Source: a bacterium | GTDB taxonomy: Bacteria > SZUA-79 > Acidulodesulfobacterales > Acidulodesulfobacteraceae | Reading direction: 5' to 3' | Assembly: GCA_021825865.1 (NCBI GenBank) | Contig: JAKAFU010000012.1 | Span: 1 to 50,600, forward strand | DNA: 50,600 nt | Part shown: positions 3,083-12,305 of the stretch, piece by piece | Position numbering within the stretch: position 1 is the first letter of the stretch | Layout of the letters: the number at the start of each line of letters is the position of its first letter | Program-made: the position numbers and the translations under genes | The notes under the pieces: model-generated | Databases searched by the model: none | Seen by the model: the letters and a program-made list of their open reading frames with translations, nothing else | What the model was told of the DNA's origin: nothing

Positions 3083-4399
3083 ATGATTGTTCTTACGCCG
3101 CAGGAATATAAAATCATATTTTCCGTTGCTGTTTTTCTTTTGACGCTTTTTTTGATTGTCAAAAAACCTTACAATATAGGAATAGGCTACAGCGCAATGA
3201 TAGGCGCCGTATTAGCCTTTGCTTTCGGGATTATCAAATATGCCGATATTTTTAAAGTAGTTGATATTGTATGGGACGCGACCTTTACCTTTGTATCCAT
3301 AATTATAATTTCCCTGATATTGGACGAAGCAGGTTTTTTTGAATGGGCAGCCTTGCATGTTGCCAGATTTGCGGGCGGAAGCGGCAGGAAAATGTTTATA
3401 TACGTCATACTTCTCGGCGCTCTTGTCGCTGCTTTTTTTGCAAATGACGGAGCTGCTCTGATTATTACGCCTATTGTTTATGAAAAAATGAAAGCTCTGA
3501 AATTCCAGAGAAAAAATATGCTGCCGTTTATCATGGCAGGCGGATTTATCGCCGATACGGCTTCGCTTCCGTTTAAGATTTCAAATCTTGTAAATATTGT
3601 TTCTACCGATTATTTCAATATAGGTTTTTTTACTTATTTTATAAATATGTTTGCTCCGGACATTTTTTCTATTATAATTTCAACCGGAGCTCTTTATTTA
3701 TTTTTTAGAAAAGATATACCGGTCAGTTATGATGTAAAATCTTTAAAGATGCCGAAGGAAGCCATTAAAGATGAAAAACTTTTTAAGTATTCATTTTTTA
3801 TTCTGCTTTTTCTTTTAGGCGGATATTTTGCAAGCGAATTCCTTAATCTTCCGGTTTCATTTTTTGCTATGGCTTTTGCGCTGCTCTTTGTATTTTTAGG
3901 ACTGAAAAGCCCTGCCGTTAATTTAAAAAGGGTATTTAAAAATGCTCCATGGAGCATAGTAGTATTTTCAATCGGCATGTACCTTGTAGTTTTTGGTCTG
4001 AAGAATGCAGGACTTACGTATATGCTGGGAAGATTTATTAACTATTTTTCACATTACGGCGGTTTTACGCTCACAATGTTTACGGGATATCTGGCGGCGT
4101 TTACGTCTTCTATAATGAATAATATGCCGACGGTTATGATAAATTCTCTTGCTATTCATTCGGCAAATTTAAAAAGCGCAATGCTAAGACCGGCAGTATA
4201 TGCAAATGTAATCGGATGCGATCTGGGTCCTAAAATAACGCCAATCGGTTCTTTAGCGACATTATTATGGCTTAATGTTTTAGAAAGAAAAGGCATTAAA
4301 ATAAGCTGGGGCTATTATTTTAAAGTAGGAATAATTTTAACCGTTCCGGTCTTGTTTTTTACCCTGCTCGGGTTATATCTGAGATTATTTCTGCTGTGA
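3083..4399 (+). CDS. arsB: ArsB-type arsenite/antimonite efflux membrane protein
   Basis: This 438-residue polytopic membrane protein matches the ArsB branch of the ArsB/NhaD ion-transporter superfamily. Recognisable stretches are IGYSAMIGA near the N-terminus, ISLILDEAGFFEWAALH at about 77-93, FANDGAALIITPIVYE at about 119-134 and GFIADTASLPF at about 154-164. About 11-12 hydrophobic segments are present, as in the family, and the length is normal (about 420-430 in known members). ArsB exports arsenite alone or with an ArsA ATPase; neither arsA, arsR nor arsC is adjacent, so it is probably a single-gene transcription unit. There is no clear Shine-Dalgarno before the ATG at 3083. It ends shortly before the cyclic-di-AMP-controlled kdp region, and no functional link to it is evident. 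Confidence 0.92.
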   Translation: MIVLTPQEYKIIFSVAVFLLTLFLIVKKPYNIGIGYSAMIGAVLAFAFGIIKYADIFKVVDIVWDATFTFVSIIIISLILDEAGFFEWAALHVARFAGGSGRKMFIYVILLGALVAAFFANDGAALIITPIVYEKMKALKFQRKNMLPFIMAGGFIADTASLPFKISNLVNIVSTDYFNIGFFTYFINMFAPDIFSIIISTGALYLFFRKDIPVSYDVKSLKMPKEAIKDEKLFKYSFFILLFLLGGYFASEFLNLPVSFFAMAFALLFVFLGLKSPAVNLKRVFKNAPWSIVVFSIGMYLVVFGLKNAGLTYMLGRFINYFSHYGGFTLTMFTGYLAAFTSSIMNNMPTVMINSLAIHSANLKSAMLRPAVYANVIGCDLGPKITPIGSLATLLWLNVLERKGIKISWGYYFKVGIILTVPVLFFTLLGLYLRLFLL

Positions 4400-4441: not shown

Positions 4442-4470
4442 TTGACAATGTTTTTTATTAATTATATGAT
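4442..4470 (+). promoter_or_regulatory. Putative promoter of the riboswitch-kdp transcript
   Basis: TTGACA at 4442-4447, a 17-bp spacer and TATGAT at 4465-4470 make a near-consensus sigma-70 promoter. Transcription would begin around 4477, about 80 nt before the riboswitch aptamer and about 900 nt before kdpF. Confidence 0.65.
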
Positions 4471-4557
4471 TTAATCAAATATATTACATTAAATGAATTA
4501 AAGTTTTATGGTGCAATCATTAATATAAATATATTATAAATAATCGTTCTTTGAAAA

Positions 4558-4867
4558 TTAAAGCTTAATTTCATTACATTTAATATTAACATTGCGGTTA
4601 ATTTTAAATAAATATAATGAAAGCGGAGAAACCAAGTTATTTGGGGCTAGTATTTTTTGTGAATATTTAAATAATTAATTAATCAATTAATTAGCCAATT
4701 AATGGAATAATACGGCGCAATGTGTTTTATTTTTTTGTATATATATGCATATTGTGCTTGGTTAAATTATTATATTAATTACGTGTAGTTTAGATATTTC
4801 TAAAAAATAAGGGATTACTCTTTTTTATTCCTCGCCCGTCAGCTAACTTCGTAAGCTATTAAAGAGT
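4558..4867 (+). promoter_or_regulatory. ydaO/yuaA-type cyclic-di-AMP riboswitch aptamer
   Basis: The conserved blocks of the ydaO class appear in order. P1 is TTAAAGCTT (4558-4566) with AAGCT (4853-4857) and TTAA (4859-4862), the A at 4858 bulged. The next arm is TTTCATTA with TAATGAAA (about 4568-4575 and 4615-4622). Then come GCGGAGAAACC (4623-4633), TTGGGG (4641-4646), an arm TATTTTTT/AAAAAATA (4651-4658 and 4802-4809), AGGGATTACTC, and the diagnostic GCCCGTCAGCTAACTTCG (4834-4851). ACTCTTT (4817-4823) can pair with AAAGAGT (4861-4867). The class normally shuts off potassium uptake and cell-wall genes when cyclic-di-AMP is high, and the next genes are kdp. The unusual part is a 143-nt peripheral insertion between the arms at 4658 and 4802. 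Confidence 0.9.
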
Positions 4868-5217
4868 GCAATTCGATAATTATTTAATATGGGCGGCGTG
4901 TCATGTGTGTGTGTTTATTTTATTAAAAAACGTTTGCTGTAATTAAATAATGAAATTTGTTTATATTGTTCAGTTGTATTGTTTATGTTAATGCCGTATT
5001 ATTTATGTTAGTGCTGTTTATGTTAATATAATCATGTTATATAATACCTTACTCCGGTAATTAATAATATCATTGTATGGTATTATATTATATCAGCGTA
5101 AAGGATATATAAATAGTAAATATCAACAGCAAATACATATAATAAATACAGACGATAAATAGTTTTATATTATCTTTTAATAAGTACAAATAATAAATAG
5201 TTTTTAGTTTTATCTTT
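4868..5217. other. Long riboswitch-to-terminator linker
   Basis: About 350 bases separate the aptamer from the terminator, with no convincing gene. The stretch is very AT-rich and has three short copies of TTATGTTA[AG]TG-like sequence around 4984-5025. Such a long expression platform is unusual for this riboswitch class. Confidence 0.5.
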
Positions 5218-5255
5218 AATAGCCGAAGGTTTTTACGCCTTCGGCTATTTTTTTT
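5218..5255 (+). terminator. Rho-independent terminator upstream of kdpF
   Basis: A perfect 12-bp stem AATAGCCGAAGG (5218-5229) / CCTTCGGCTATT (5238-5249) with an 8-nt loop runs into eight Ts (5248-5255). It lies after the riboswitch and 122 nt before kdpF, so it is the likely control point. Its 5' arm is also complementary to the 3' strand of the aptamer (4847-4860), which would permit an antiterminated state. Confidence 0.9.
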
Positions 5256-5377: not shown

Positions 5378-5464
5378 ATGGTAGAAAATACTATTCTTCT
5401 AATAGTTTCGGTAGCAGTGCTGATATATCTGTTTTATGTGCTGATATATCCCGATAAATTCTAG
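5378..5464 (+). CDS. kdpF: KdpF, small subunit of the Kdp potassium ATPase
   Basis: This 28-residue single-span membrane peptide starts at an ATG with a strong GAGGAGGG ribosome-binding site. It ends YVLIYPDKF, matching the typical KdpF ending (hydrophobic helix, then YxLI.PE/DKF). KdpF stabilises the KdpABC complex in the inner membrane. The position directly before kdpA, apart from one more small gene, supports the call. Confidence 0.85.
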   Translation: MVENTILLIVSVAVLIYLFYVLIYPDKF

Positions 5465-5670: not shown

Positions 5671-5757
5671 ATGTTCGCATTTTTACTGGCATTGGCCGGT
5701 ATTGCTCTAATGTACGCCGTTTTATGGTTTTTGATAGATTTTCTTGACAAACTTTAA
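5671..5757 (+). CDS. Small kdp-associated single-span membrane protein
   Basis: This 28-residue peptide starts at an ATG preceded by AAAAGGAGG with ideal spacing, which decides this start over longer in-frame options from 5530. It is one hydrophobic helix ending WFLIDFLDKL. Tiny proteins ending in a similar xxDxL sequence are found beside kdpF in other bacteria (from memory), but the role is unknown. It sits between kdpF and kdpA, about 195 bp before the latter, and could be a second KdpF-like stabilising subunit. Confidence 0.7.
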   Translation: MFAFLLALAGIALMYAVLWFLIDFLDKL

Positions 5758-5951: not shown

Positions 5952-7676
5952 ATGACTTCTACAGGGATATTACAGATAAGTTTAGTGCTTTTAATAATGG
6001 TTTTAACAGCCATTCCTTTAAGCAGATATCTTGCTCACGTTTTTAAATACGAGCATACTTTCTTAGATAAATTAATTAATCCGTTTGAAAATTTAACGTT
6101 TAAGTTTTTAAAAGTCAATAAAGAAGATGAGATGACATGGACGACTTACTTAAAGATAGGACTTGTTTTCAATTTTCTTATGGCTGCAATCGTATTTCTT
6201 ATACTGCATTATCAGAACTATCTTCCGTTTAATCAGATGCATTATCCGGGTATTCCGTGGGCGCTTGATTTTAATACGGCAATAAGTTTTATAACAAATA
6301 CTAACTGGCAGAATTACGGCGGTGAAGAAGTAATGTCTAATTTTTCACAGATGGCGCTTGTTTTTCTGCAATTTACTTCAGCAGCGACAGGTCTTGTTTT
6401 CGCTGTCGCTTTTATAAGAGGTATTATTAGGCATGAAGCAAAATACGTAGGAAATATTTATGTAGATTTTATTAAGGCTATATACAGAATTTTTATTCCG
6501 CTGTCTATAATATTTGCTATAGTCATGCTTTCGCAGGGCGCTCCTCAAACCTTTACGATGCAGAAAAAGGTAACAAATATAACCGGAACAAAACAGACGC
6601 TGTCGGTAGGACCGGTAGCTTCTATGGTATCTATCGAAAATTTTGGAACTAACGGAGGCGGTTTTTATGATGTTAATGCGGCTCAGCCGTATGAAAATCC
6701 CAATCCGTTTACTAATGCGCTTATAATTTTTATGATGGGCGTAATACCGATAGCTCTTTTTTTCATGTACGGGATAATGATAGACGATAAAAAGCATGCA
6801 TGGACGCTATTCTGGGTAGCGGCAACACTTTTAATAGTCTGCGTCGCCGTGATTTATTCTCAGGAAGCGGCAGGCAATCCGTTTCTTGCGCATCTGGGCG
6901 CTAATGTTACCGCTGCAAAATATAATCCTGGCGGCAATATGGAAGGGAAGCAGGAGCATCTCGGCATTGCGCAGACTTCGCTGTTTGCCGGAGCAACCAC
7001 AGCGTTTACCACGGGTAATGTTGACAGCGCTCATGATAGTTTCATGCCGCTTTCAGGTATGATACTAATGGTTGAAATGATGCTTAACCTCATATTCGGC
7101 GGAAAGGGTGTAGGATTATTAAATATGCTGACTATGGTTATAATAGCGGTATTTATTGCCGGACTTATGGTAGGGCGAACGCCGGAGTTTCTAGGCAAAA
7201 AGATAGGAAAAAAAGAAGTCACGCTTGCGACTCTTGCGATGTTTGCGCACGCTTTTATAATACTCGTGCCGTTCGGTATAGCTATGTCGGTTCCGGCAGG
7301 GCTTGCGGGAATATTTAACCCTGGTCCGCATGGACTTTCCGAAGTGCTGTACGCATTTACGTCAACCGTGGCTAATAACGGGTCTGCTTTCGCCGGTTTA
7401 AACGGAGATACAACGTTCTATAACGTAATATTCGGATTTACCTTAATGTTTGGAAGATATATTCCTATTATATGCCAGGTAGCTATTGCAGGAGCGTTAA
7501 TAAAAAAGAAAAGAATTCCAGAGTCTGCCGGAACCTTTCCTGAACACGGTTTTTTGTTTTATTCGGTCGTAATGGGAACGATAATATTAATCGGAGCATT
7601 GACGTTCTTTCCTGCGCTTGCATTGGGACCTATTGCCGAACATTTTGCAATGGTTAAAGGACATCTGTTTTACTAA
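5952..7676 (+). CDS. kdpA: KdpA, potassium-channel-like subunit of the Kdp ATPase
   Basis: KdpA (574 residues; about 557 in E. coli) forms the potassium-selective pathway of the high-affinity KdpFABC pump in the inner membrane. The four pore-loop regions are recognisable: TNTNWQNYGGE at about 116-126, NFGTNGGGFYDVN at about 232-244, the loop around the GGKGVG stretch at about 384-389, and STVANNGSAF at about 470-479. Ten or so hydrophobic helices are present. The ATG follows a GAGGT ribosome-binding site. Transcription is probably governed by the cyclic-di-AMP riboswitch at 4558-4867. Confidence 0.97.
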   Translation: MTSTGILQISLVLLIMVLTAIPLSRYLAHVFKYEHTFLDKLINPFENLTFKFLKVNKEDEMTWTTYLKIGLVFNFLMAAIVFLILHYQNYLPFNQMHYPGIPWALDFNTAISFITNTNWQNYGGEEVMSNFSQMALVFLQFTSAATGLVFAVAFIRGIIRHEAKYVGNIYVDFIKAIYRIFIPLSIIFAIVMLSQGAPQTFTMQKKVTNITGTKQTLSVGPVASMVSIENFGTNGGGFYDVNAAQPYENPNPFTNALIIFMMGVIPIALFFMYGIMIDDKKHAWTLFWVAATLLIVCVAVIYSQEAAGNPFLAHLGANVTAAKYNPGGNMEGKQEHLGIAQTSLFAGATTAFTTGNVDSAHDSFMPLSGMILMVEMMLNLIFGGKGVGLLNMLTMVIIAVFIAGLMVGRTPEFLGKKIGKKEVTLATLAMFAHAFIILVPFGIAMSVPAGLAGIFNPGPHGLSEVLYAFTSTVANNGSAFAGLNGDTTFYNVIFGFTLMFGRYIPIICQVAIAGALIKKKRIPESAGTFPEHGFLFYSVVMGTIILIGALTFFPALALGPIAEHFAMVKGHLFY

Positions 7677-7779
7677 CGCTAACGGCGGCAGATAGTTCTT
7701 TTAGTTTTAAATTAAATAAAAGTGTTTAATATTAAGCAAATTTTAATTTAATAATAAAAAAATGGAATAGAGGTGTTTT

Positions 7780-8403
7780 ATGGCAAAAGAATTGATAAAA
7801 ATCATTAAAATGACCGTATTGCTTTATCTGTTATGCAGTATCGCATATACATTTTTAATATGGGGAGTAGGAAAAATATTTTTTCCTTTTCAGGCGGGAG
7901 GCAGTATTATGTACAAAAACTCTAAACCTATAGGTTCAATGCTCATAGGAGAAAAATTTACCTCCCCCTATATATTCAACGGAAGACCGTCTTATGCCGG
8001 AAACGGGTATAACGGCACTGAATCAAGCGGTTCTAATTATGCGCCTACAAACGGTAAATATATTGCTATAGAAAAGAAATTTATAGATAATTTTTTAAAA
8101 GAAAATCCTACTGTAAAGAAAGGCGATGTTCCAGTTGATATAGTTACAGGCTCAGGTTCCGGGCTTGGACCGTACATTTCTATAGCCGCCGCTCTTGACC
8201 AGGTTCCGAGAATTTCAAAATTAACCGGAATAAAAGAAGAGACGCTGCGCAAGCTTGTGATGGAACATATCTCAGGCAGGCAATTCGGAATTTTCGGAAC
8301 GCCTGGATTAAATACGGATAAACTTAATCTTATGCTTGCAGGAATTTTAAAGGTTAAAAATAAGAAATTATTTAAAAAGATTTTTCCGGTTCTTGCAGAC
8401 TAG
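7780..8403 (+). CDS. kdpC: KdpC, accessory subunit of the Kdp ATPase
   Basis: KdpC (207 residues) has one N-terminal membrane helix (about 8-32) and an extracytoplasmic domain with the family signatures FNGRPSYAGNGYNGTESSGSN at about 66-86, VTGSGSGLGPYIS at about 122-134, and LVMEHISGR followed by FGTPG near the C-terminus. It supports assembly and potassium affinity of the pump. A GAGGTG site precedes the ATG. The gene lies before kdpB, whereas in most operons kdpC follows kdpB. Confidence 0.96.
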   Translation: MAKELIKIIKMTVLLYLLCSIAYTFLIWGVGKIFFPFQAGGSIMYKNSKPIGSMLIGEKFTSPYIFNGRPSYAGNGYNGTESSGSNYAPTNGKYIAIEKKFIDNFLKENPTVKKGDVPVDIVTGSGSGLGPYISIAAALDQVPRISKLTGIKEETLRKLVMEHISGRQFGIFGTPGLNTDKLNLMLAGILKVKNKKLFKKIFPVLAD

Positions 8404-8498
8404 ATATTAAGAATTTATAACTTAATAATTTATGACTCTTATGGCTCGTAATTCTAAATTTAAAATTTAAATAAAATCAATAATGGAGTGAAATTAAA

Positions 8499-10547
8499 AT
8501 GTCAAACAAAGCGTATCACGTGTCGGCATTTAACAAAAATATATTGAAAACAGCGATTGCAGAATCATTCAGGAAATTAAATCCCAAAGTAATGATTAAG
8601 AATCCTGTTATGTTCGTGGTAGAAATAGGTGCGGTAATTACAACGGCAATTCTTTTTAAAAATTTATTTTTGCATGATTTTAAGTATATGCTGTTTATTG
8701 TTCAAATCACTTTATGGCTGTGGTTTACGATAATTTTTGCAAATTTTGCCGAAAGTATTTCCGAAGGAAGAGGCAAAGCGCAGGCTGAAACACTTAGGAA
8801 GAGTAAAACCGAGGTTATAGCGCGTTTATTAAAAGCCGACGGAAAAGAAGAAAAAATTAAGGCGTCAATGCTTAGAAAAGGCGATATTGTCGTGTGCGAA
8901 ACTAACGACATCATACCAGGAGACGGCGATGTTATAGAAGGTATTGCATCTGTTGACGAATCCGCTATTACAGGAGAATCTGCGCCCGTAATCAGGGAAA
9001 GCGGAGGAGACAGAAGCGCTGTTACGGGAGGAACAAAAGTCCTTTCCGATAAGATTTCTATAAAAATTACATCAAATCCCGGCGAAGGATTTATTGATAA
9101 AATGATAAGTTTAGTAGAAGGCGCTTCACGGCAGAAGACGCCTAACGAAGTAGCTCTGAATATTCTTCTTGTTATGTTTACCGCTCTTTTTCTCGTAGTG
9201 GTTGTAACTATTGAACCTATGGTTGCGTATTATCACGGTTATATTTCGCCGGTTATATATGTTGCTCTTTTAGTGTGTCTTATTCCTACTACTATTGGTG
9301 CGCTGCTTTCGGCGATAGGTATTTCGGGAATGGACAGGTTAGTTAAGCATAATGTTATTGCTATGTCAGGTAAAGCGGTAGAGGCTGCAGGCGACGTAAA
9401 CACGCTTTTACTTGATAAAACGGGAACGATAACGTTCGGAAACAGAATGGCCGTTAATTTTATTCCTGCAGTGGACGTTAATGTTAACGAATTGGCGGAT
9501 TATGCGCAGCTTTCTTCAATCAGCGATGAAACGCCGGAAGGACGTTCCGTCGTGACGCTTGCAAAAAAATACGGTTTAAGAGGCAGACATTTAGACGAGG
9601 ATAATATAAAATTTATACCTTTTTCAGCTATGACAAGAATGAGCGGCGTTGATATTTTAGACAAAAAAGAAAATATCAGAAAAGGAGCCGTTGAAGCAAT
9701 TTCAAATTATGTTATTCAAAACGGCGGAACTGAAGACAAAAGACTTATAGAAACCGCCGCCGATATTTCAAAACAGGGCGGAACTCCTTTAGCTGTCGCG
9801 GTTAATAACCGTATGCTCGGACTTATTCAGCTTAAAGATGTTGTAAAAGGCGGGATTAAAGAAAGAATCAACAGCCTGAGAAAAATAGGCATTAAAACAA
9901 TTATGATTACCGGAGATAATCCGTTAACGGCAAGGGCTATAGCGGATGAAGCAGGGGTTGACGAGTTCGTTTCAGAGGCAACGCCTGAAACAAAAATGGC
10001 AATCATTAAAAAAGAGCAGTCTTTAGGCAAATTAGTAGCCATGACCGGAGACGGCACAAACGATGCTCCTGCTTTAGCGCAGGCAGATGTCGGAGTTGCC
10101 ATGAACACCGGAACAATGGCGGCTAAAGAGGCAGGCAATATGATTGATTTAGATTCAAACCCGACAAAATTGATTGAAATAGTTGAAACAGGAAAACAGC
10201 TCCTTATTACAAGAGGTTCTCTTACTACATTTTCCATTGCAAACGACCTGGCAAAATATTTTGCAATAATACCGGCTATGTTTGCGCCAATTATGCCGTG
10301 GCTTGCACCTCTTAACATAATGGGTCTGTCTTCGCCTGAGTCTGCAATACTGTCGGCTGTTATATTTAATGCAATTATTATAATAATACTTATTCCTCTT
10401 GCTTTGAGAGGCGTCAAATACAGACCTGCTAAGGCGTCTAATATTTTAACGAGAAATCTGTTGATTTACGGACTCGGCGGGGTAATAGCTCCGTTTATAG
10501 GAATAAAACTTATTGATATGCTGATAACCTATTTTCACATTATCTGA
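8499..10547 (+). CDS. kdpB: KdpB, P-type ATPase catalytic subunit
   Basis: At 682 residues this equals the E. coli length. P-type ATPase motifs are in place: TGES (158-161, actuator domain), DKTGT with the phosphorylated Asp at 306, the KGA nucleotide-binding region, TGDNPLTA and [10 protein letters not shown]. KdpB hydrolyses ATP to drive potassium uptake through KdpA. The ATG at 8499 is preceded by GGAGTG. It lies 95 bp after kdpC in the order kdpA-kdpC-kdpB. Confidence 0.97.
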
Positions 10548-11120: not shown

Positions 11121-12305
11121 TTGAAGATTGAATACAGCAGACCTTCCGCAGATTCTATATTAAATAAAATTAAATATTCTTCAAGCGATACTAACGTTTT
11201 CAGAATATATTTAGGGGCGGTTCCGGGAACAGGAAAAACTTATGCAATGCTTGAAGACGGCAATTATCTGCTTGAGAACGGCATAGATGTTTCAATAGGC
11301 ATAATCGAAACCCACGGAAGAAAGGAAACGGAAAAAGCAATCGGCAAACTTCCGATAATAGCCAGAAAAAAAATAGAATATAAAAATTCAATATTCGACG
11401 AATTAGACGCGGAAGCGATTATCGCAAGGAAACCTAATATCATTTTAATAGACGAACTCGCGCACAATAATATTCCGGGTTCAAAAAATATCAAAAGATA
11501 TCAGGATGCTATTGATATATTTCAATCGGGGATAAGTGTTTTTACGACATTAAATATTTTTCATATAAATTCTATTGCCGAAAAAGTCGAAGCAGAACTG
11601 GGGATTAAGGTTGCCGAAAGGGTGCCTGATTATATTTTAAATTATGTTACGGAAATTATTAACATAGATATACCCGCTAATGAATTGATAAAAAGATTAA
11701 AGGAAGGGAAAATATATTCTAAAGAAAAAATAAATATCGCCCTTGAGAATTTTTTTAAACTTGAAAATCTGATCATCTTAAGAGAACTGTCTTTAAGAAA
11801 AGTTGCCGATGAGCTCAGCGAACAGTCGGCGGATATAGATGATTTAAAAACAAAAAATAAATTAGAATTAAAATCAAATGAAAAAATTCTGGTCCTGATA
11901 AGCTCAAACCCTGATTCTGCAAGACTGCTGAGGATAGGCTCAAAATTAGCAGGCAGGCTTAACTCTAATTTTTATGCACTTCATATAAATTTAAGGAACA
12001 GGCATAAAATTGGAACGAGCAATAAAAATTATGACAAATCGCTTGCAAAGAATATATCGATAGCAGAAAATATGGGAGCGTCAATATTCAGTTTTCAGGC
12101 TGACGATGTTGTGCAGGGCGTGATTGATTTTGTTAAAAAGAATAACGTTTCCCACGTAGTTATAGGCGCTACTAATGTAAAAAAAAATAGAATCGCCAAA
12201 TTTTTTTATAAAAGCGTCGTCAATAAACTTATAGATGCTCTTCCCGATGTTTCTTTTCATGTAGTTCCCACTACGTCTAATAAATTTTCTTCAGACAAAA
12301 AATAA
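11121..12305 (+). CDS. Kinase-less KdpD (KdpD N-terminal plus USP domain)
   Basis: The first about 220 residues match the KdpD sensor domain: Walker A GAVPGTGKT (32-40), THGRKET (64-70) and Walker B IILIDELAHNN (107-117). A universal-stress-type domain follows (about 254-385). The membrane helices, GAF and histidine-kinase domains of full KdpD (about 890 residues) are absent, and no kdpE is nearby, so it cannot act as a two-component kinase. Staphylococcal KdpD binds cyclic-di-AMP through an SxS-X20-FTAxY motif in its USP domain. Here SSN (261-263) and FYALH (284-288) are exactly 20 residues apart, a partial match. The start is a TTG with no Shine-Dalgarno. A good AGGAGGCG site (11061-11068) instead precedes an in-frame TTG at 11076, but three stop codons intervene. 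Confidence 0.85.
   Translation: MKIEYSRPSADSILNKIKYSSSDTNVFRIYLGAVPGTGKTYAMLEDGNYLLENGIDVSIGIIETHGRKETEKAIGKLPIIARKKIEYKNSIFDELDAEAIIARKPNIILIDELAHNNIPGSKNIKRYQDAIDIFQSGISVFTTLNIFHINSIAEKVEAELGIKVAERVPDYILNYVTEIINIDIPANELIKRLKEGKIYSKEKINIALENFFKLENLIILRELSLRKVADELSEQSADIDDLKTKNKLELKSNEKILVLISSNPDSARLLRIGSKLAGRLNSNFYALHINLRNRHKIGTSNKNYDKSLAKNISIAENMGASIFSFQADDVVQGVIDFVKKNNVSHVVIGATNVKKNRIAKFFYKSVVNKLIDALPDVSFHVVPTTSNKFSSDKK

Follow-up and report, generated by a model that had tools for sequence, protein, structure and literature searches.

Can an aptamer strand govern a terminator whose 5′ arm is made some 350 nt later? The question is raised by a kdp operon leader in a 50,600-nucleotide stretch of DNA (the window: GenBank assembly GCA_021825865.1, contig JAKAFU010000012.1, positions 1 to 50,600) from the Acidulodesulfobacteraceae, a family of the Candidatus Acidulodesulfobacterales, which are known from acid mine drainage. 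A first-pass annotation had suggested that the 3′ strand of an aptamer in this leader can alternatively pair with the 5′ arm of the kdp terminator, making an unusually long switch. Having followed this up in the window and in related genomes, we conclude that the kdp leader is very probably a cyclic-di-AMP (c-di-AMP) riboswitch of the OFF type, acting on an intrinsic terminator through antitermination.

Results

The kdp operon and the leaders compared

The operon and its predicted promoter comprise the following features.

4442–4470, forward strand: promoter-like TTGACA-17-TATGAT, matching the consensus at 11 of 12 positions
5378–5464, forward strand: kdpF, 28 aa, first gene of the operon, from sequence
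5671–5757, forward strand: second 28-aa hydrophobic ORF (MFAFLLALAGIALMYAVLWFLIDFLDKL), between kdpF and kdpA, from sequence
5952–7676, forward strand: kdpA (PF03814, 716 bits)
7780–8403, forward strand: kdpC (PF02669)
8499–10547, forward strand: kdpB (E1-E2 ATPase and hydrolase domains)
11121–12305, forward strand: truncated KdpD with sensor and Usp domains (PF02702 and PF00582 only)

We take the ORF at 5378–5464 to be kdpF by resemblance, and that at 8499–10547 is presumably kdpB, a name given from its position. The genes run kdpA-kdpC-kdpB (5952–10547) instead of A-B-C, with the truncated KdpD downstream; a domain search of the window found no kinase domain in the KdpD beside the operon. 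By a simple motif, a similar second hydrophobic ORF is present in 16 of 21 upstream regions, the three riboswitch-less kdp loci among them. Directly upstream of the kdp promoter lies an ArsB-type permease gene (3083–4399). Between that gene and the kdp leader, the terminator scan found a weak forward stem at 4367 only, inside the end of the gene.

The leader was compared across 30 genomes of the family, which hold 23 kdpA copies. Three of these (G001, G011 and G027) were left out because contigs end upstream of kdpA. Among the 20 readable upstream regions, 17 have both aptamer and terminator and three (G010, G014 and G015) have neither. An eighteenth leader comes from G021, where kdpF lies near a contig end and kdpA gave no match. 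Leaders were located by strings taken from the first ones seen, and the relevant stretch was inspected in all 20 readable regions; searches independent of those strings (Rfam and the model R1 described below) added only G021 and a weak match in G012. One contig, G025a, starts inside the aptamer and lacks the side with P1 and the boxA-like element, so that counts for these parts run to 17 rather than 18. The 18 leaders are related, and near-duplicates include G018/G020 and G002/G006.

The aptamer is recognized through its relatives

The aptamer of the window is made up of these parts.

4558–4566, forward strand: 5′ strand of P1, pairing with 4853–4862 with A4858 bulged; in the RNAalifold core of ten relatives
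4569–4622, forward strand: hairpin TTTCATTA...TAATGAAA with an enlarged loop, from sequence; the helix has two-sided changes in relatives
4623–4628, forward strand: 5′ strand of P2, GCGGAG, pairing with 4847–4852
4643–4647, forward strand: GGGGC core, pairing with GCCC 4834–4837, from the RNAalifold consensus and sequence
4650–4808, forward strand: AT-rich insert in a peripheral aptamer hairpin, against about 15 nt in the shortest relatives
4817–4823, forward strand: ACTCTTT, pseudoknot partner of AAAGAG 4861–4866 (six pairs)

The Rfam c-di-AMP model RF00379 (ydaO/yuaA) gives the window aptamer 19.1 bits under relaxed limits, against a gathering score of 38. No Rfam riboswitch was found in the window at the gathering score, and none in its whole genome at E 0.001; other members of the genus also fall under the RF00379 gathering score. 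In sister genera, 11 copies found at the corresponding locus pass at 71–89 bits, and a twelfth, cut by its contig (G025:C64), scores 54 bits. Identification of the window aptamer therefore rests on its relatives. The low score is explained by long AT-rich insertions that are absent from the high-scoring sister-genus copies. A model built from compact copies only, with none from the window's genus (R1), matches every one of the six leaders readable in that genus, with scores of 27–45 bits and in three cases as two separate halves. Across the 30 family genomes R1 returned 22 matches, 21 of them at the 18 leaders, and no other convincing aptamer copy. The match in G012 (E 0.058) was rejected as a further aptamer for want of a CAGCTAA core.

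RNAalifold on ten compact relatives recovered core P1, P2 (GCGGAG/CTTCGN), a GGGC/GCCC helix and further hairpins, with two-sided changes in nine of 39 pairs. The five core P1 pairs are formed in 83 of 85 cells over 17 leaders, both misses falling in G009, and in G019 a P1 pair has changed on both sides from U-A to C-G. P2, whose last pair is G-U, A-U or G-C, is paired in 108 of 108 cells over the 18 leaders, as are the six pairs of the pseudoknot ACTCTTT/AAAGRG (108/108). The window has the same parts; its peripheral hairpin carries about 160 nt of inserted AT-rich sequence, and a second hairpin is longer. From GTTCTTTGA, a motif just upstream of P1, to AAAGAG it measures 320 nt. Over this stretch most of the complete compact copies have 134–159 nt, and G019 has about 200 nt.

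The window thus has in common with RF00379 all core helices, the CAGCTAA core and the ACTCTTT/AAAGAG pseudoknot, which we take to be a feature of that family. It departs from RF00379 generally in the large AT-rich inserts of its genus and in the 3′ strand of P2. For comparison 30 RF00379 loci were taken, 26 of them outside the family, and the aptamer core was missed at two loci (L187 and L204). The P2 3′ strand is CTTCG in the window and CCTCG or CCCCG in 21 of 24 outside loci; one of the 24, G219, has CTTCG. CTTCG and the GCTATTAAAG that follows both fit the terminator arm. On this anatomy, the window leader would carry a c-di-AMP riboswitch aptamer and be expected to bind that ligand. A diadenylate cyclase domain (PF02457) is encoded in 27 of the 30 family genomes, the window's among them.

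An aptamer strand with two partners

Four further features describe the switching strand and what follows it.

4847–4866, forward strand: switching strand CTTCG-TAA-GCTATTAAAG-AG, forming the 3′ side of P2, P1 and the pseudoknot in the predicted bound state and the 5′ arm of the antiterminator in the predicted unbound state
4867–5213, forward strand: AT-rich spacer of 347 nt with short tandem repeats, folding no better than shuffles (z 0.1)
5214–5228, forward strand: antiterminator 3′ arm CTTTAATAGCCGAAG, with CTTT outside the terminator hairpin; found in 18/18 leaders as CTTTAATAGCCGRRG
5218–5255, forward strand: intrinsic terminator AATAGCCGAAGG..CCTTCGGCTATT and T run, from the terminator scan and family pattern search

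The two segments proposed to pair are present as CTTCGTAAGCTATT (4847–4860) and AATAGCCGAAG (5218–5228), and in the terminator scan the latter is the 5′ side of a hairpin with a T run behind it. The 11-bp duplex put forward for them is correct and too short: the sequence allows 15 bp with the 3-nt bulge TAA, between CTTCG-TAA-GCTATTAAAG (4847–4864) and CTTTAATAGC-CGAAG (5214–5228). The added pairs join AAAG (4861–4864) to CTTT (5214–5217), which lies immediately 5′ of the terminator stem; a sixteenth pair, A4865 with T5213, is available in the window. The gap between the two arms of the 15-bp helix is 349 nt.

Two weak Rfam matches on the terminator, to STnc240 and the suhB sRNA, were below threshold and look like generic terminators.

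A duplex as good as that of the window, anywhere in the spacer, arose in 7 of 1,000 dinucleotide shuffles of the downstream region and in 1 of 1,000 shuffles of the aptamer strand. The shuffle test covered six of the 18 leaders; in the five others, 0–7 of 1,000 regions and 0–24 of 1,000 strands reached the observed energy, the G019 duplex being matched by 6 and 24, respectively. The likelihood of a chance duplex in the window alone is low, not negligible, and this evidence is suggestive rather than conclusive. A different explanation could draw on the 7/1,000 shuffles that reach the window's duplex energy: the terminator would be constitutive, or would guard kdp from read-through of the upstream gene, with a coincidental complementarity and an aptamer that acts otherwise, for example on translation. 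We hold the pairing to be real because all 15 of its pairs are possible in 18/18 leaders despite spacers that range from 55 to 402 nt.

Conservation favours the antiterminator

Summed over the 18 aptamer-bearing kdp leaders of the family, the antiterminator is paired in 270 of 270 cells. Its aptamer-side bases are invariant; the terminator-side strand varies at two positions, from A to G only and opposite U, with pairing retained, and the bulge between the segments is TAA, CAA or CAG. Covariation between the two arms had been suggested as a check. Over the 18 leaders no pair has changed on both sides, the paired positions being almost constant, and this outcome is uninformative rather than positive. 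There is little room for change, since one strand serves both aptamer and antiterminator and its partner serves the terminator too.

A constitutive terminator would conserve AATAGCC for the sake of its own stem, but CTTT, outside the hairpin, is likewise present in 18/18 leaders; none of the ten columns preceding it is invariant. In seven leaders, all related, position 9 of the terminator stem is an A.C mismatch, and the antiterminator A-U pair at that position is retained. The invariant CTTT and these mismatches favour conservation for a putative antiterminator over conservation for the terminator only.

Within the family, neither aptamer nor terminator turns up alone. The three aptamer-less kdp loci also lack the terminator, and neither R1 nor Rfam, both independent of the antiterminator string, found a convincing family aptamer without that string. 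The terminator pattern AATAGCCGRRG-N3..14-CGGCTATTTTT, sought with no mismatches allowed, has 18 matches in the 30 family genomes, exactly the 18 leaders. A stock terminator of these bacteria is ruled out by this search, since every exact match sits in an aptamer-bearing kdp leader. By itself CTTTAATAGCCGRRG is less specific, with 25 matches in the family, 18 in the leaders and seven elsewhere. The seven look like chance, as all lie inside open frames of 278–565 aa; they are without the terminator pattern. The terminator pattern, like the boxA pattern below, was derived from these leaders and matched exactly, so that looser copies elsewhere would escape.

Predicted folds suit a decision made during transcription

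Fold energies were computed with a program that ignores the pseudoknot, tertiary contacts and ligand. For RNA ending before the terminator 3′ arm, the free minimum-energy fold has 10 or 15 antiterminator pairs in 18/18 leaders, and the antiterminator fold beats the best aptamer fold by 2.3–15.2 kcal/mol (6.6 in the window), the aptamer fold of G025a being weakened by its missing P1 side. Once the 3′ arm is included, the difference runs from −6.5 to +7.4 kcal/mol and aptamer plus terminator is favoured in 15 of 18 leaders (window +3.9). With the full terminator the antiterminator is still the lower in G004, G009 and G026a, and the free fold retains some antiterminator pairs in G004, G006 and G019. 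On the whole, these modelled energies match what would be expected of a switch decided during transcription.

That the minimum-energy folds choose the antiterminator in every leader before the 3′ arm is made also argues against a constitutive terminator, and the translational route meets a further obstacle: the kdpF start codon is 123 nt past the terminator, a distance at which the aptamer could not simply sequester it. Taking these points with the conserved CTTT and the strict co-occurrence, we consider a constitutive terminator very improbable.

Antitermination by the aptamer strand, our preferred reading, would work as follows. The strand 4847–4864 would have two alternative partners. With c-di-AMP bound, a state that we infer to mean enough K+, the strand would be locked in P2, P1 and the pseudoknot; the terminator arms would then pair with each other, transcription would stop at about 5255 and kdp would be off. 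Without ligand, CTTTAATAGC-CGAAG (5214–5228) would capture the strand on leaving the polymerase, no terminator would form and kdp would be transcribed. In the window's genus, AT-rich insertions would have enlarged the aptamer hairpin and the aptamer–terminator spacer and left the parts unchanged. The sequences themselves show both partners, their conservation, the co-occurrence of aptamer and terminator, energies consistent with a switch and, elsewhere in the genome, a domain for c-di-AMP synthesis; that the ligand binds, which way control runs and that the switch is active in the cell are what we infer.

The direction proposed by the first-pass annotation (bound, terminator free and kdp off; unbound, kdp on) is supported by the anatomy, the fold energies, the association of aptamer with terminator and the OFF logic of Bacillus thuringiensis BMB171, whose kdp c-di-AMP riboswitch is a tested OFF switch in the sections of Wang et al. 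(2019, PMC6488665) used here. We looked for points in favour of the opposite sign, in which c-di-AMP would promote read-through by freeing the aptamer strand, and found none. Because the antiterminator strand lies inside the conserved P2, P1 and pseudoknot, ligand binding should block the antiterminator instead, and the sign of the B. thuringiensis switch, on that same account (PMC6488665), also speaks against an ON switch. We give it hardly any chance.

The long spacer belongs to one genus

Between the aptamer end and CTTT there are 347 nt in the window. The range is 335–402 nt over the six leaders of its genus that could be read and 55–156 nt over the 12 others. The unusual length noted at first is therefore real for the window's genus and is not a feature of the switch itself. 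Among the 26 RF00379 loci outside the family, eight have a terminator-like hairpin within 700 nt; three of these are convincing (G080, G333 and G152), with stems of 8–10 at 43–55 nt from the CAGCTAA core. Given sister leaders of 55–156 nt, these outside loci and a B. thuringiensis terminator directly after its aptamer, we read the long gap as a genus-level expansion. It looks like the later stretching of an ordinary switch, since the same pairing is kept in relatives with a much shorter gap.

Tandem repeats account for part of the spacer's growth: of units about 38 nt apart, G005 has four copies and the window two, these being the leaders examined. Structure in the six long spacers is not supported (fold z 0.1 to −3.2, 30 shuffles each); most of them fold hardly better than shuffled sequence, if at all.

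The repeats of about 38 nt lie just 5′ of the terminator, at 5140–5204 in the window and at 3184–3365 in L111, and the window and its close relative G005 do not have the same number of them. Beside these repeats are strings reading CTTTTAATAA, which nearly match the antiterminator arm CTTTAATAG.

Such growth could also mean decay: in the window's genus, long insertions would have destroyed or impaired the switch, and only the compact versions of the sister genera would work. The AT-rich swelling of spacer and aptamer is confined to this genus and is partly made of tandem repeats (two leaders examined), and the window aptamer scores below the Rfam gathering score, both of which a relic would explain. 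Yet all six readable members of the genus keep 15/15 antiterminator pairs, P2, the pseudoknot and the terminator despite spacers of 335–402 nt, and we accord a degenerating relic little weight. The leaders form a natural series in which a single switch has spacers of 55 to 402 nt and in which the limit of aptamer–terminator distance for cotranscriptional switching becomes measurable.

A boxA-like element precedes the aptamer

One more element lies at the start of the aptamer.

4546–4562, forward strand: boxA-like GTTCTTTGAAAATTAAA, just 5′ of aptamer P1, for which the 3′ tail of the aptamer is a possible pairing partner (P0)

The motif GTTCTTTGA is found in 17 of the 18 leaders, usually as GTTCTTTGAAAATTAAA; the eighteenth (G025a) is cut by the contig start. 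It begins 17 nt before the P1 GC in 14 of the 17 and 18, 26 and 27 nt before it in the rest, and by simple consensus only, a promoter-like hexamer pair stands 5′ of it in 16 of the 17 leaders reaching it. The three aptamer-less kdp loci are without the boxA-like element (best 3–5 mismatches in 14), and GTTCTTTGA within one mismatch is absent from the stretch examined at the 26 aptamer loci outside the family, of which L204 is probably misplaced. The pattern GTTCTTTGAMAWWTWAA has 18 matches in the 30 genomes of the family, of which 16 fall in the kdp leaders compared here; a reversed control has none.

The likeness is to ribosomal RNA operons. In a comparison of 16S–23S spacers, for which five of six genomes searched showed a 16S gene, GTTCTTTGAAAATT is identical (14/14 bases) to an element of G003 and G010, one base off (13/14) G000's own and likewise one change off in G009 and G011. 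Upstream of 16S no match comes closer than two mismatches (G000 and G003) or three (G009, G010 and G011). The G000 spacer element sits between the second tRNA and 23S rRNA, which we take to be the place of the second rrn boxA, and we assume from their position that the spacer elements of these genomes are boxA. The kdp element has the same GTTCTTTGAAAATT as the G003 and G010 rRNA spacers; as a putative NusB/S10 site it differs from rRNA boxA in standing in an mRNA leader, ahead of a riboswitch, and in its potential to pair with the aptamer 3′ tail as well.

A NusB gene is encoded, and the untranslated leader runs for about 900 bases from the predicted promoter to kdpF; by analogy, a NusB–S10 loading site would suit a leader of that length and could counter Rho. 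Tentatively, and with more doubt than confidence, we suggest a riboswitch with a built-in boxA: Nus factors would load on GTTCTTTGAAAATT early, tether the leader at the RNA exit channel and shield the RNA from Rho, and the tethered P1 strand would meet its partner hundreds of nucleotides later. There is a model of this kind for rRNA, outlined in the portion of PMC10250234 considered here. In it, RNA anchored through boxA is kept at the exit channel until its partner, transcribed much later, appears; the tethered boxC is proposed to find its 16S trailer partner in this way. If true, the boxA reading would explain how the RNA folds in time although some 350 nt separate the arms of the switch and the aptamer closes over about 290 nt. 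The element would then be the first Nus loading site in a riboswitch leader known to us; a search of open-licence papers turned up no other.

A purely structural role is also possible, since an 8-bp pairing of the boxA-like element with the aptamer 3′ tail can form in 17/17 leaders. Moreover, the sign of any Nus effect on the kdp leader could go either way, because in one mRNA, suhB, Nus factors can promote Rho termination (according to the part of PMC5725501 drawn on here).

Discussion

This leader is best explained as an OFF riboswitch for c-di-AMP, ahead of kdp, whose long-range antitermination is conserved; the switch has been lengthened in the window's genus and may include a boxA. Its closest counterpart is the kdpFABC riboswitch of B. 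thuringiensis BMB171 (Wang et al. 2019, PMC6488665), with which, on the sections of that paper used here, it shares the aptamer class, the operon, the position ahead of kdpF, an intrinsic terminator, a truncated KdpD downstream and the expected OFF logic. The two differ in layout. According to the same sections, the B. thuringiensis aptamer spans +28 to +171 and the terminator follows directly at +172 to +227 (PMC6488665), whereas in the window's family 55–402 nt separate aptamer and terminator, 347 nt in the window.

As far as those sections go, kdp-linked c-di-AMP riboswitches occur in 12 species, all with an N-terminal-only KdpD, and the 2019 survey describes the arrangement as seemingly restricted to Bacillales (PMC6488665). 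The window's family, which appears to belong to a phylum other than that of B. thuringiensis, is probably outside Bacillales, and kdp c-di-AMP riboswitches in such a family are new. Control of kdp by c-di-AMP would thereby extend to a family apparently well outside Bacillales. A truncated KdpD again accompanies the riboswitch in the window, suggesting that kinase loss and riboswitch gain go together more widely.

The proposed mechanism also resembles the transcription-terminating OFF riboswitches with P1-strand antiterminators treated in the part of Barrick and Breaker (2007, PMC2258182) relied on here. In both, bases of the switching helix would pair with the expression platform without ligand, and binding would free the terminator. 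Unlike that type as described there, the antiterminator of the window would also invade P2 and the pseudoknot strand, and its arms are 349 nt apart.

A kdp-linked match exists in another family as well. The genome G080 has eight RF00379 matches. One of them (L179) shares its strand with a kdpA gene 0.9 kb downstream, and a terminator lies 55 nt from its aptamer core.
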